From assembly GCA_019695095.1 (NCBI GenBank), contig JAIBAQ010000015.1, positions 1-61,028 of the forward strand: a stretch of 61,028 nt of DNA. The letters run 5' to 3'. This document shows positions 53,645 through 59,107 of this stretch, one piece after another; within the stretch, counting starts at the first letter, position 1, and each line of letters begins with the position of its first letter. The position numbers were made by a program, and so were the translations under genes. A model generated the notes under the pieces. The model worked only from the letters and a program-made list of their open reading frames with translations, was not told the DNA's origin and ran no database searches. This DNA comes from Candidatus Hydrogenedentota bacterium (GTDB lineage: Bacteria; Hydrogenedentota; Hydrogenedentia; Hydrogenedentales; SLHB01).

Positions 53645-56600
53645 CTATTCTGCCTTCGCCACTCTTGGAGTTGGGCCAGGCCGCTCGTTTCTGTTCACGT
53701 AGTCCGGCCACAACGGGCAGTTGAGGTCGATCCACGTTTTTACGCGGAGCACTTCATCACGGGTAAGCGTCACGTCGTGGTGTCCTGCATTGAGGACTTC
53801 CCACAGCTTGCTCTTCAGCGTACCGAGCGACAGCGGCTCAATCTTCTCGCAGCCGCCCGCGTTCCATTGCATATCGGCGTAGTGGACGTAGCCCTTCGAT
53901 ATGAGTGTCCGGTAAGAGGCAGGGATTCTGTCGGCGTCTATATCTCCGCGCAGGTCCACCCCCAACTTATTTGTTGCATCGTGGCATCGTACGCACTTGG
54001 CGTCAAAGACAGGCTGTACCACCTTCTCGAAGGAGAACGGTTGCCCCTCCCACTCCGCCAGCGTAGGCTGCACCGGCTGTTGGGCTACATAACGGCCCTT
54101 GTTTGCAGGGGCCATCTCGCGGTGTTCGTGACACCCGATACAACTTCTCCGTTCGCCGGGCTGCAGTTGAACAACACTGCGCATGCGTTGCAGCTCGTTG
54201 AAGTTTTCGTCGAGCACTTCGAAGTAGAGCACCTTGCCCGCGGGAGCCTTGAAACTCGCGGAGCCGTCTTCCGCCACAGGCACCAGACCGTGCGGAGCCT
54301 TGGCAACGTAGGTGGGCCATCCGTAGGGCCCCCAGACGATGTGAACCGGAGATGCATACCAATCCTGGAATTGGGGATCGTGGTCCGCCCGATACTTGCC
54401 GTCTGGCATTACTTCGAGATTGGCGCGCACTTCTTCGCACACACGAAGGTACTTCACTTTCCCGCGCTCAACGGGTGGCGATATCCCTTCATATACGTCA
54501 CGCACGATAAACTCGCCGTACTCTTCGGCAATTTGTGTCGTATCCTGGGGCGCAATAATCGGAGGCGGTGCCTGGGCTTTGAATACAGTCGGGCACATGC
54601 TGGAAATGGCCGGGTCTCCGTAGATGAGTTCGCGATTACCGAAGCGGTCGATTACAAACAACTCGAAACGGTATTGCGGCGCGTGCGAACACACGAAATA
54701 ATCTCGCGCAATGGGATACGCGTCGCGGAAACACTCCTCGCTCGGCCACATCCCCGGCCAAGGAACTTCGGGCGTCAGACAGGTAATCGCTTTGGGATTG
54801 AAACGGCCTTTGTCGATATCGACCAATGCGATTGGACCATTGAGATCACCGAAGTGAGAAATGAGTGTGCAGCATATCTCATTGGTTCCAGGCACTTCCC
54901 TGCCGTTGGCGTAACCATTGGGTTGGATGATGGTATTGCCGAAGACCAATTCCGGTTTGCTGCCATCCGGATGAATCGACCAGAGCGTATGACCAAAGTC
55001 GGCGCCTTTGTCCTGATACTCGGAACGGGTCCAGATGATGCGGCCGTCGCGCATGACCGAAGGAGCCCACTCGCTCAGGTTCGCGAACGACAAGGGGGTG
55101 AATTCCTTCCCCTCCGCGTCCATGCGAAACATGACATAGGCTTGAGGACGCCAGCACAGGAAACGCATGTGACACCGCGTACTGATAACCGCAAGCCCGC
55201 CGTCCGGTAACGGACATGGCCAGAAATCGTGGAACGGGCCATCGGTGAGTTGCGTCAGATTGCTGCCGTCGGCGTTCATGCGCATGATGTGGAAATAGCC
55301 GTCTTCCGAAGGACGGTAGGCAAAGTAGATCTTGCTGCAGTCAAAAGTCGCGGCTGGCGTGCGCGCAATGCCGCCGCCAGACTCGAAGAGGTGCTTCACC
55401 TCCGCTTGCTCGGGTACAAGCCGGTCGCCGTCTCGCGGGATGTGCAGCGTCGCAACCGCGCCGCCGGGCCGATACGGGGCATCCAGCAAGTCACTGTAAT
55501 TGTGCGACGGTTCAAACGGCATGCGCTTCGCAAACAGGAGGTCTTCCATCGGCGCGAGTTCAGGTTCACGCATGAACAGATCGCGCTTCGCCGTGCGCGC
55601 CTCGAAGAACGTCTCACGCTCGCGTGTCACGTCCGGTTTAAGCGAGTCCGACAATTGCCGTTGCCGCTCGCGGAATGACGTTAGTTGCTCGCGCTCTTTG
55701 GTTACGTCGATTCCTTTGGCAGCGAAGCGATCGACCATCGCGCTCATGAGATTCAAGGTACGTTCCAACGGATCGTATCTGAGCAGGCTCAGTGAATACT
55801 CGTGGCCCTGATCGTCGGCGAACTCAAGATTGCATTCGGGTCCGATGTCATTCTTGGTGGCTTTGAACGAGATGACTCGCGATTCACCCGGCGCAAGCGT
55901 GATCCCGTCGCCCAACTCGAGTGCGTTGCCGGAAAGTTTGATCGGAGTGGAATCGTTCGATTGCTTGGATTCGGCCATCGCAAAACGCACGGGGAATGTC
56001 CCCTCGGAGCAAGGACCTGCCTGCGCGATGCTCACGTTGGAGAACGTGAACTGCACGGGACGCCCAAACCGATCCGTGTGTTGCCCTCCCATACCGAGTC
56101 CAACGCGCAAGCCCTTCTCTTGACACGCAGGAAAGAGCGAGAAGGGCAAACGGACTTCCCAGCGTGTCATTGAGTCATTGCATGCGCATTCCACTGGCGT
56201 GGAAGAGGACTCCTTCCCGCCTTCGTACTGCTTGAAGGCAAGGGCCTTCCCGTCGCACACAAGTACACCGCAACCTTGTCCGTCCGCGGTCGACAACACC
56301 GCAATGTGACTGCTCAGAAGCTGGCTGAAGTCGAAAGCGAGACAGAGGTCGCTCTCGAACCAACCTGCCGTGACGGCAATTTCTACGAGCGGACCCGCCT
56401 CGAAATCGTAGGGATACGCCACTCGGGCGACACCACGTGACGCTTCGTTCCAGCAGTCGTCGTTGAGTCGGCCGTCGATCTTTGGCTCGCGCGAGAGCGG
56501 CGGGAGCGGAAGTCGGTCATCAAGCACGTGGCGCGGATACTGCTTGACGCGGCCATTGTACGGTACCAGACGCGGGCTCAGGTCCGCGCGTCCGTAGGTC

Positions 56601-57337
56601 TTCAACCATGCATGCTCTTCGCCCAAGTAGGCCAGCTTAAGTTGTTCGGCATAGTCGCGGGGAGGCTGCGAGAGCACCGTCTCTTTGTCCCGGCCGCGCT
56701 GAAGCGGCGGGGGTGGATTGGGCACATCGCCCGAAAAACCGGACGCGTTTTGCTGACGAATAACGACTGCTCCCGCCGTTGCCGTCACGTCGGAGACGGT
56801 AGTCCACGTCTGGCCGTCCATGGACAACTGCACGGAGAACACGATGGGCATGCGGTCGGCATAGTTGCGGTTACGGTCGCGCGAAAACACGACGCGCGCG
56901 ACCGAGACGGCGGCTGGCAATTGAATCTGCGCCCATTCGTCCGCCATGGCAACGGGAATCCAACTGTTGTCGTTGCCGTAGAGTCCGTCATTGAGATGTT
57001 CAATCCGGTGTGCCGCGTACCCGTTCAGGCTGGAGGAGGCCGACGCTTTTGCGCCCTTCGAGGCGAGCGCCAAGTTCTGTTCCGCGTCCGTGCCGTAGAC
57101 TTCGAGTTCATCGATACACGGTTGCGAACCATCGCTCGTAGCCTTCACCAAGAAACGCACATACTGCGCCTCCTGCGGCGGAAATTCGACGGCGTTGGGT
57201 TTGTCCGAGAAGACGACCGTCTCGGCAAAGGCTAGAGGTGGGGCAAACCACACGAAGCACACACCAGCGGTACAAAGCAGCAAAAGCGCCGTGCTTACCG
57301 GACAACGTTTCCACACAGAGCCTGCGATACGTCTCAT
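53645..57337 (-). CDS. HzsA-related secreted di-heme multidomain protein
   Basis: A 1230-residue exported protein with a signal peptide (about 1-38). Domains in order: a discoidin-like F5/8 region (about 45-190), a CBM9-like beta-sandwich (about 275-450, DGRLNDDCWNEASRG), a helical segment, a TolB-like propeller related to the middle part of hydrazine synthase alpha (about 650-1000, MNADGSNLTQLTDGP), then two c-type heme motifs: CIGCH (Cys1066, His1070) and CVRCH (Cys1115, His1119). NCBI-style annotation calls such proteins HzsA-related. No other hydrazine synthase subunit is present, so anammox activity is not implied. CAGGAG lies eight bases before the ATG. Confidence 0.85.
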   Translation of the reverse strand: MRRIAGSVWKRCPVSTALLLLCTAGVCFVWFAPPLAFAETVVFSDKPNAVEFPPQEAQYVRFLVKATSDGSQPCIDELEVYGTDAEQNLALASKGAKASASSSLNGYAAHRIEHLNDGLYGNDNSWIPVAMADEWAQIQLPAAVSVARVVFSRDRNRNYADRMPIVFSVQLSMDGQTWTTVSDVTATAGAVVIRQQNASGFSGDVPNPPPPLQRGRDKETVLSQPPRDYAEQLKLAYLGEEHAWLKTYGRADLSPRLVPYNGRVKQYPRHVLDDRLPLPPLSREPKIDGRLNDDCWNEASRGVARVAYPYDFEAGPLVEIAVTAGWFESDLCLAFDFSQLLSSHIAVLSTADGQGCGVLVCDGKALAFKQYEGGKESSSTPVECACNDSMTRWEVRLPFSLFPACQEKGLRVGLGMGGQHTDRFGRPVQFTFSNVSIAQAGPCSEGTFPVRFAMAESKQSNDSTPIKLSGNALELGDGITLAPGESRVISFKATKNDIGPECNLEFADDQGHEYSLSLLRYDPLERTLNLMSAMVDRFAAKGIDVTKEREQLTSFRERQRQLSDSLKPDVTRERETFFEARTAKRDLFMREPELAPMEDLLFAKRMPFEPSHNYSDLLDAPYRPGGAVATLHIPRDGDRLVPEQAEVKHLFESGGGIARTPAATFDCSKIYFAYRPSEDGYFHIMRMNADGSNLTQLTDGPFHDFWPCPLPDGGLAVISTRCHMRFLCWRPQAYVMFRMDAEGKEFTPLSFANLSEWAPSVMRDGRIIWTRSEYQDKGADFGHTLWSIHPDGSKPELVFGNTIIQPNGYANGREVPGTNEICCTLISHFGDLNGPIALVDIDKGRFNPKAITCLTPEVPWPGMWPSEECFRDAYPIARDYFVCSHAPQYRFELFVIDRFGNRELIYGDPAISSMCPTVFKAQAPPPIIAPQDTTQIAEEYGEFIVRDVYEGISPPVERGKVKYLRVCEEVRANLEVMPDGKYRADHDPQFQDWYASPVHIVWGPYGWPTYVAKAPHGLVPVAEDGSASFKAPAGKVLYFEVLDENFNELQRMRSVVQLQPGERRSCIGCHEHREMAPANKGRYVAQQPVQPTLAEWEGQPFSFEKVVQPVFDAKCVRCHDATNKLGVDLRGDIDADRIPASYRTLISKGYVHYADMQWNAGGCEKIEPLSLGTLKSKLWEVLNAGHHDVTLTRDEVLRVKTWIDLNCPLWPDYVNRNERPGPTPRVAKAE

Positions 57338-57695: not shown

Positions 57696-57724
57696 GTGAC
57701 ACCCAAGTCCTGAAAGGGTATACT
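57696..57724 (+). promoter_or_regulatory. Sigma-70-type promoter of the lipoprotein/radical SAM unit
   Basis: GTGACA (57696-57701, five of six), a 17-base spacer and TATACT (57719-57724, five of six). Transcription would start near 57731, about 50 bases before the lipoprotein start codon. It has the best combined match to consensus among the protein-gene promoters in this window. Confidence 0.72.
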
Positions 57725-57781
57725 TGATAGCAGAGTCACGTGAAGGGCATTTCGCTTCACATGGACTCAGGGGGATTTGCT

Positions 57782-57982
57782 ATGGCAGCACAAGCGGCAC
57801 GTTGGGGAAAGAAGGCCAGGCGCGCGTGGATATTTCTGCGTATCGCCGTTCTGACGGTTGTGTTGGGTGCAATCGGGGTTGTCGTTTCCGGCTGTCCACC
57901 GGTCGTGTTGTACGGACCGGCGCCGGAGTATGGCGTGGTGCCCGTGTATGGCGTGCCCGTGGACTACAACCTAGACAAGTAA
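57782..57982 (+). CDS. 66-residue lipoprotein with hexad Tyr-Gly repeats, putative radical SAM substrate
   Basis: A very small lipoprotein: basic N-terminus, hydrophobic signal (about 17-35) and lipobox VVSGC (Cys38). The mature peptide is only 29 residues. Its tail repeats every six residues on the pattern x-Tyr-Gly-x-x-Pro: Tyr at 44, 50 and 56 each followed by Gly, with a fourth Tyr at 62 in a degenerate last unit. GGGGG lies seven bases before ATG 57782; an ATG at 57740 is in frame but less well placed. A radical SAM/SPASM gene follows after 30 bases. The arrangement recalls the described rSAM/lipoprotein pairs (TIGR04133/TIGR04134), which is from memory and needs a profile search. Confidence 0.78.
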   Translation: MAAQAARWGKKARRAWIFLRIAVLTVVLGAIGVVVSGCPPVVLYGPAPEYGVVPVYGVPVDYNLDK

Positions 57983-58012
57983 CCCCGTTTGCCAACCTGA
58001 ATCGGACTGATC

Positions 58013-59107
58013 GTGGCGGCGAATCCAACCAAAGTCCCGTGGCTGAAGCGCGGCGCGCTGAACATCTTCCGGCGGTATCGCCGGGCGCAAACCGCGCTGC
58101 ATGAACTCACCTATCTCTTCTGGGAATGCACGCTTCGGTGCGATTTGTGCTGTCGGCATTGTGGAAGCGACTGCCGCCGGGAAAGTGAAACGCGGGATAT
58201 GCCCCTGGCGGACTTTCTCCGTGTCTTGGACGAAGTCGCGAAGCATCAGAGGCCTTCCAAAATCATGCTTGCCCTGACGGGCGGCGAACCCCTGTTGCGC
58301 CACGATTTGGAGGAATGCGGGGCGGCATTTCGCGACCGGGGATTTCCGTGGGGCATGGTTTCCAACGGCTACAGCCTCACCGCTGAACGCCTCGCGAGAC
58401 TACTGGACTCCGGTTTGCGGTCGCTCACTATCAGCCTTGACGGCCTCGAAGAAAGCCACAACTGGCTGCGACGGCGTCCCGATTCCTTTGAGCGGACTCT
58501 GAACGCAGTCACGTTACTGGGCCGGAACCCGGGGCTTACGTCCGACGTCGTCACGTGTGTCAATCAGAAGAACTATGGCGAGTTGGGCGATATCAGGCAG
58601 TTGCTCATCGACAAGGGCATCCGCAGGTGGAGGCTGTTCACCATCTTCCCGAAGGGTCGCGCTGAAGACGAGCCGCTGCTGGATATCTCCGGCGCGCAAC
58701 TGCGCGACCTCCTGGAGTTCATTCAGCAGACCCGGCGAGAAGGCTCCATTCTGGCCAGCTACTCCTGCGAGGGTTTTCTGGGCGCTTATGAAGGTACCGT
58801 GCGTGATTCATTCTACTGGTGCAGGGCGGGCATCAACGTGGGTTCGGTACTGGCCGACGGCTCGATTTCCGCGTGCCCGAGCCTGCGCGGCGACTATATC
58901 CAAGGGAACATCTACCGGGACAGCTTCTGGGATTGCTGGGAGAACCGGTTTCAGGTCATGCGTGACCGAAGCTGGACGAAGACAGGTTGCTGCGCTGACT
59001 GCTCCGCCTACTGTTGGTGCGAGGGCAACGGACTCCATTTACGCGACCAACAAAGCGGAAAACTGCTGCGGTGCCATCTGAAGATGCTGGACGGCGCGGG
59101 GGAGTAG
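58013..59107 (+). CDS. Radical SAM/SPASM domain protein (rSAM/lipoprotein system type)
   Basis: A 364-residue enzyme starting at GTG. The radical SAM cluster motif CxxxCxxC is Cys42, Cys46 and Cys49 (LRCDLCCRHCGSDC), followed by LTGGEPLL for SAM binding. The C-terminal SPASM region (about 265-355) is rich in Cys: YWCRAG, ISACPS and CCADCSAYCWCEG can hold auxiliary 4Fe-4S clusters. Such enzymes modify residues of small peptides. The lipoprotein encoded just upstream under the same promoter is the obvious candidate substrate. Heme-maturation homologues (AhbD-like) are an alternative family assignment. Confidence 0.9.
   Translation: MAANPTKVPWLKRGALNIFRRYRRAQTALHELTYLFWECTLRCDLCCRHCGSDCRRESETRDMPLADFLRVLDEVAKHQRPSKIMLALTGGEPLLRHDLEECGAAFRDRGFPWGMVSNGYSLTAERLARLLDSGLRSLTISLDGLEESHNWLRRRPDSFERTLNAVTLLGRNPGLTSDVVTCVNQKNYGELGDIRQLLIDKGIRRWRLFTIFPKGRAEDEPLLDISGAQLRDLLEFIQQTRREGSILASYSCEGFLGAYEGTVRDSFYWCRAGINVGSVLADGSISACPSLRGDYIQGNIYRDSFWDCWENRFQVMRDRSWTKTGCCADCSAYCWCEGNGLHLRDQQSGKLLRCHLKMLDGAGE

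Follow-up and report, generated by a model that had tools for sequence, protein, structure and literature searches.

Which residues of a short lipoprotein could a neighboring radical SAM/SPASM enzyme modify, and by which chemistry? This question is raised by a pair of adjacent genes, P0001 and P0002, in the window (the whole stretch of DNA that was analyzed, 61,028 nt). The lipoprotein carries four equally spaced tyrosines, three of them followed by glycine, and we asked whether the spacing or the Tyr-Gly motif itself matters, and what the relatives of the enzyme suggest about its action.

The lipoprotein and enzyme genes

The features of the locus are given below, with their state in its two closest relatives (L039 and L040) where this is informative.

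57696..57724, + strand: promoter GTGACA-N17-TATACT, sigma-70-like (10/12 in the consensus scan)
57769..57774, + strand: likely ribosome-binding site AGGGGG (direct reading)
57782..57982, + strand: short lipoprotein P0001, the likely substrate (66-aa ORF)
57782..57892, + strand: lipoprotein signal peptide, residues 1-37, proposed to be the leader too (lipobox VSG-C38; partner signal peptides share an LG motif near the Cys)
57908..57916, + strand: X-Tyr-Gly site 1, L43-Y44-G45 (kept in L039/L040)
57926..57934, + strand: X-Tyr-Gly site 2, E49-Y50-G51 (inside the hexad missing from L039/L040)
57944..57952, + strand: X-Tyr-Gly site 3, V55-Y56-G57, YGVP (kept in L039/L040)
57965..57967, + strand: Tyr62, with no Gly after it and not a predicted site (absent from L039/L040)
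58013..59107, + strand: TIGR04133 radical SAM/SPASM enzyme P0002, 364 aa (GTG start at 58013)
58040..58099, + strand: N-terminal helix, residues 10-29, preceding the radical SAM core
58139..58162, + strand: radical SAM cluster C43-x3-C47-x2-C50, in the context WExT..C...C.HCGS
58772..58792, + strand: GFLGAYE, residues 254-260 (GYYGPYE is the counterpart in the TIGR04103/TIGR03913 clade)
58820..59074, + strand: SPASM region C270-x12-G-x4-C288, C327-x2-C330-x5-C336, C354 (lacks the Cys normally found in the Cx3C step)

The lipoprotein reads MAAQAARWGKKARRAWIFLRIAVLTVVLGAIGVVVSG-C38-PPVVLYGPAPEYGVVPVYGVPVDYNLDK (Cys set apart): a cationic n-region is followed by a hydrophobic stretch and the lipobox V-S-G-C38, and the mature protein comprises 29 residues counted from Cys38. 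The gene of P0002 begins 30 nt further downstream. The first-pass annotation had described a 66-aa lipoprotein with 29 residues left after lipidation, a radical SAM/SPASM gene 30 bases downstream and a near-consensus promoter shared by both genes, and all of these were recovered. The promoter is unlikely to be a chance match because GTGACA-N17-TATAAT precedes the orthologous lipoprotein-enzyme pair at the same position in both L039 and L040, and this upstream sequence is probably under constraint.

We compared both proteins to family profiles. P0002 is a member of TIGR04133 (548.2 bits for a cut-off of 425, covering positions 3-349 of 350). P0001 has the lipobox signal peptide followed by Tyr-Gly-x-Pro that is typical of TIGR04134 (VSG-C38, then Y56-G-V-P), and lacks the carboxypeptidase-regulatory-like beta domain of that family (29 mature residues; no such Pfam match). 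It presented no match to TIGR04134 even at E ≤ 1 (cut-off 39.8 bits), which rules out membership, and no Pfam family above its cut-off; P0001 is therefore placed among the short partners that are common beside TIGR04133 enzymes. The earlier suggestion that the pair belongs to the TIGR04133/TIGR04134 profiles thus held for the enzyme but not for the lipoprotein.

P0002 possesses the CxxxCxxC motif and the SPASM cysteines of its superfamily. Across TIGR04133, C270, C288, C327, C330 and C336 are invariant and C354 is nearly so, one canonical SPASM Cys is missing, and two extra cysteines (C54 and C252) are invariant. The AlphaFold model of P0002 (pLDDT 92) is closest to solved folds that include SuiB, CteB (5why), anSME and ChlB (Z ~26), all of which modify peptides or proteins; no PDB entry named as a splicease was present among the sequence or fold matches. 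Our guess is that helix 10-29 could hold the signal peptide.

The next gene downstream of P0002 (59250-59939) presented no Pfam match. On the other side of the pair, 53645-57337 (- strand) encodes a 1230-aa protein in which a hydrazine synthase alpha middle domain (PF18582, 4e-19) is combined with an F5/8 type C domain and heme motifs of the CxxCH type.

X-Tyr-Gly proteins beside TIGR04133 enzymes

The two partners co-occur across genomes. Among 119 genomes of one Bacteroidota order, TIGR04134 was found over its cut-off in 14, all of which (14/14) also encode TIGR04133, itself present in just 30/119 at the threshold used. Likewise, the best three matches to P0001 among 68 Hydrogenedentota genomes (E up to 5e-14) come from the same three genomes that possess TIGR04133 over its cut-off, and the fourth-best match drops to E 9e-5. 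Strong homologs of P0001 are thus found in only two other Hydrogenedentota genomes, both with TIGR04133 over its cut-off.

We then surveyed the neighbors of TIGR04133 enzymes in 76 testable loci of several phyla, in all of which 500 nt or more precede the enzyme gene. An exported X-Tyr-Gly protein adjoins the enzyme in 72 of them, 59 detected by automatic scan and 13 by inspection (L073, L080, L083, L085-L088, L091, L097, L101, L113, L114 and L116). The question of whether homologs of the enzyme occur with or without such a partner, on which the substrate proposal had been staked, is answered in favor of the pairing. Among the 76 loci, four Prevotella loci presented no X-Tyr-Gly partner nearby, which counts against the splicease reading developed below. 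The Prevotella loci L098, L102 and L118 carry an upstream peroxiredoxin-like gene with KSMYGRKYMG; we treated this motif as a coincidence because it is presumably native to that enzyme family.

The motif YG.{1,2}P was found in 87/100 upstream lipoprotein-like ORFs relative to 2/119 such ORFs from other parts of these loci (P = 5e-44, a value that is overstated since homologous loci are not independent). The conserved unit across partners is X-Tyr-Gly, usually X-Tyr-Gly-x-Pro, where the X position is filled in most cases by Glu, Met, Leu, Ala, Cys or Val. Among the partners are long lipoproteins as well as short ones, whose site lies close to one end or the other; some partners carry multi-site arrays, and two are T9SS-sorted. 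The long Bacteroidota partners match TIGR04134 (e.g., 94.5 bits for the partner of L074, with a cut-off of 39.8) and tend to carry a carboxypeptidase-regulatory-like domain. Since partners are otherwise diverse and include T9SS-sorted proteins, their common factor is X-Tyr-Gly rather than lipid anchoring, and this shared Tyr motif is therefore the likely substrate site. The first-pass annotation had taken the Tyr array as the substrate: the Tyr motif stood, being common to the partners of 72/76 loci, but its periodicity and the fourth Tyr did not.

Several partners present unusual architectures. Upstream of the enzyme in the Fibrobacter loci L085, L087 and L088 (e.g., L087:2802-3794) we observed Ser-rich lipoproteins in which X-Tyr-Gly occurs about four to six times (LYGCP, KYGVP, LYGVV, KYGVV and VYGPP). 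The two T9SS-sorted proteins (L080:3029-3871 and L091:2573-3418) are TIGR04134-like and carry X-Tyr-Gly, with a T9SS sorting tail replacing the lipobox. In eight loci (L092, L099, L109, L110, L112, L115, L117 and L123), Tyr-Gly directly follows the lipidated Cys, and the X of this Cys-Tyr-Gly would be the lipidated residue itself.

Probable kinship with the PlpX clade and candidate chemistry

The splicease PlpXY cuts tyramine out of X-Tyr-Gly, its natural sites being MYG and LYG, and tags such as GGPIRPLYGLPI were designed from its site; PlpX belongs to IPR026482 (PMC10533398; PMC11002830). PlpXY is capable of several rounds on one precursor (PMC10373908). On a Nostoc plasmid, a TIGR04103 enzyme (853 bits) adjoins a Nif11 precursor ending in SIALYGLPPELF. 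We assume that TIGR04103 corresponds to IPR026482 in InterPro, and the Nif11-cluster setting agrees with this.

In a maximum-likelihood tree, TIGR04133 is sister to the TIGR04103 (PlpX) clade (support 99/95, and 93/85 without long branches). Profile comparison points the same way, with scores of 376 between TIGR04133 and the PlpX clade and 318 between TIGR04133 and AhbD/TIGR04053-like proteins, and TIGR04133 is the next best family of the Agathobacter, Tropicibacter and Aureibacter enzymes after TIGR04103/TIGR03913. Both groups have in common S52 of HCGS, W206 and the G254..E260 signature (GFLGAYE/GYYGPYE), which are absent or rare in the outgroup; G254 and E260, common to TIGR04133 and the TIGR04103/TIGR03913 clade, reach only 5% and 0% in outgroups. 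However, a grouping of TIGR04133 with AhbD/TIGR04053-like proteins is not rejected by the AU test (P = 0.31), and P0002 itself scores 127.9 bits with TIGR04053 and 122.5 bits with TIGR04103, far below the 725-bit cut-off of the latter. In Hydrogenedentota genomes, TIGR04103 was not found at E ≤ 1e-50. The PlpX clade includes further relatives by sequence, the GDL-motif maturases, which lie beside DUF1843 peptides, some with LYGGA, PYGVA or PYGAG.

Some loci of this wider clade are of interest in their own right. On an Agathobacter rectalis plasmid (NZ_CP143948; L120 2743-2949), a radical SAM gene that resembles TIGR04103 but stays under its cut-off (235 bits) is directly preceded by an unannotated small ORF ending in NLFGPVMYGTGVRM (VMYGTGVRM); this ORF is a candidate splicing precursor in a human gut bacterium. 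In L132:1028-1743 and L121:2156-2869, DUF1843 peptides occur in threes before GDL-motif-type maturases, and near their N-terminus some copies have [LP]-Tyr-Gly and others Tyr-Ala or Tyr-Met; the GDL-motif maturase clade may also be splicease-like. On a Tropicibacter plasmid (L135:2174-5865), a TIGR04103/TIGR03913-like radical SAM gene adjoins a trypsin-like protease and an M23 peptidase.

The first-pass annotation had named no chemistry. Tyramine excision is the reaction suggested by both the kinship with PlpX and the X-Tyr-Gly motif. We propose, with a probability of roughly 60%, that P0001 and P0002 are a maturation pair in which a splicease-like maturase acts at the Leu43, Glu49 and Val55 Tyr-Gly sites. 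P0002 would bind unexported P0001 in the cytosol, with the signal peptide as leader, and radical SAM chemistry would act at L43-Y44-G45, E49-Y50-G51 and V55-Y56-G57. Each site would lose C8H9NO (computed 135.068 Da, up to 405.205 Da for all three sites) and leave an alpha-ketoamide derived from Leu43, Glu49 or Val55. Sec export and lipidation of Cys38 would then leave a short peptide at the membrane that bears as many as three alpha-ketoamides; we infer the leader role and this order of cytosolic modification, export and lipidation. X-Tyr-Gly is well supported by sequence conservation as the predicted site of action, and we have moderate confidence that the chemistry would be splicing. Given the AU result, the TIGR04053 score and the cysteine pattern proper to the family, we regard the splicease assignment as a well-motivated reading.

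Spliceotide products are reported to inhibit proteases (PMC10373908; PMC11117315), and the most natural guess, which we make with low confidence, is therefore that the modified lipoprotein could trap serine or cysteine proteases covalently and reversibly. Extended to the whole family, the proposal becomes an even bet: TIGR04133 would be a family of surface-protein spliceases in Hydrogenedentota, Bacteroidota, Spirochaetota, Fibrobacterota and Neomarinimicrobiota, removing tyramine at X-Tyr-Gly of exported lipoproteins before export. If so, alpha-ketoamides in the protein backbone would be exposed by the cells, and in some lineages the lipidated Cys itself (Cys-Tyr-Gly) would carry one.

Alternatively, the enzyme could act at Tyr-Gly by another chemistry, such as a crosslink between Tyr and a neighbor, epimerization or C-H functionalization without backbone excision. 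We consider this fairly unlikely. SPASM enzymes vary widely in their chemistry and the nearest solved folds of P0002 include thioether formers, while the missing SPASM Cys and the two extra invariant Cys set TIGR04133 apart. In addition, X is Glu at 46/120 YG sites, unlike the natural Met/Leu sites of PlpXY, and an aromatic residue is conserved at Tyr+7 in long partners, for which splicing offers no explanation; both observations count against splicing. However, the tree position and the shared signature link TIGR04133 to the PlpX clade, and the MYG/LYG-x-Pro context resembles known splicing sites. A fixed partner residue is also ill-suited to the variable Tyr+2 position (T, V, C, S, A or M), and the aromatic is frequently absent from doublets and from C-terminal sites (e.g., AMYGVRP).

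It is improbable that X-Tyr-Gly-x-Pro is a recognition or sorting element, with modification occurring elsewhere, for instance at the lipidated Cys or in the signal peptide. The motif does lie mostly near the lipidated Cys, and an LG motif is common to the signal peptides (LG[FILVYA] near the Cys in 57/88 partners relative to 3/119 controls). But X-Tyr-Gly-x-Pro is also found far from the Cys near the C-terminus (AMYGVRP at 35-45 residues), in tandem arrays and in the T9SS-sorted proteins of L080 and L091, which have no lipobox.

The idea that four equally spaced tyrosines are modified iteratively and that the period itself is important is very improbable. The tyrosines of P0001 do lie at positions 44, 50, 56 and 62, and four Tyr at any equal spacing within 29 residues are expected with P ~0.005. 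The x-Tyr-Gly-x-x-Pro pattern of the first-pass annotation was nonetheless only partly regular: the hexad spacing of Tyr is as described, but the distance to Pro is +4 for Y44 and Y50 and +3 for Y56, and Asn instead of Gly comes after Y62. The lipoproteins of L039 and L040, with tails VLYGPVPVYGVPTADSLDR and VLYGPVPVYGVPTADALDR (the second given as ...ADALDR), lack one of the hexads and any Tyr corresponding to Y62, so that just two X-Tyr-Gly units are common. Across 83 YGxP sites, 67 present an aromatic at +7 (family motif YGxPxA[DE][F/Y]), and Y62 is most likely the family aromatic at +6 with one residue missing. The count of Tyr-Gly units ranges from one (59/88 proteins) to about six (Fibrobacter). 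Six is the commonest interval between successive YG (10 intervals), next to 5, 7, 10, 15 and more; Bacteroidota and Neomarinimicrobiota repeatedly have doublets with this spacing (e.g., YG[VI]xPxYG), and the partner of L063 has a triplet with spacings of 6 and 7, which suggests that arrays grow and shrink. A strictly periodic array as a conserved variant is thus contradicted by the relatives, and we ruled out the six-residue period as the key feature.

Finally, it is scarcely credible that the two genes are chance neighbors—an enzyme that acts on a small molecule or cofactor, as AhbD/NirJ do, next to an unrelated lipoprotein—since, even with AhbD and TIGR04053 among the next best families and an AU test at P = 0.31, an X-Tyr-Gly partner is present in 72/76 loci and TIGR04133 in 14/14 TIGR04134 genomes.

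Comparison with known systems

The enzyme family and its pairing with a lipoprotein are already known as the profiles TIGR04133/TIGR04134; a text search of the available literature found no papers naming either one, and the splicease assignment for TIGR04133 may be new. This assignment gives both profiles a precise prediction, a loss of 135.068 Da per X-Tyr-Gly. Should it hold, electrophilic proteins with an edited backbone would be present at the membrane or surface of many bacteria of the gut, the rumen and the environment, where they could trap proteases, and the family would be a new source of splicing enzymes for protein labeling.

AhbD, NirJ2 and TIGR04053 are the next nearest families to P0002 by HMM score and have the same fold. 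AhbD and NirJ act in the heme pathway, and P0002 lies far below their cut-offs; the HCGS and G..G.YE signature of P0002 is absent or rare in these families.

The TIGR03913 GDL-motif maturase belongs to the same clade as TIGR04103, with 48% identity to the Nostoc enzyme. Some of the DUF1843 peptides of this system have LYGGA, PYGVA or PYGAG, resembling X-Tyr-Gly, whereas others have Tyr-Ala or Tyr-Met. These small peptides have no evident signal peptide, and the enzyme is ~30% identical to P0002.

The PlpXY/TIGR04103 spliceotides have the X-Tyr-Gly motif, often with Pro after the next residue, as in the pair of the window. HCGS, the W and G[FY]xGxYE are common to PlpX/TIGR04103 and TIGR04133, which are sister clades in the tree. 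The substrate in the window has a signal peptide where spliceotides have a Nif11 or NHLP leader, it is lipid-anchored, and no PlpY-like protein was seen at the locus. Relative to the Nostoc TIGR04103 protein, TIGR04133 lacks one SPASM Cys; the Nostoc protein starts near the radical SAM core, with no counterpart seen of helix 10-29 of P0002.

The TIGR04133/TIGR04134 pair itself (NCBIfam) resembles P0001 and P0002 in the order of lipoprotein and enzyme, the enzyme family, the signal peptide and the Tyr-Gly-x-Pro after the lipidated Cys. P0001 differs from TIGR04134 in its three X-Tyr-Gly units, its 29 mature residues and the absence of the beta domain, and this short multi-site lipoprotein is a variant of the known pair.
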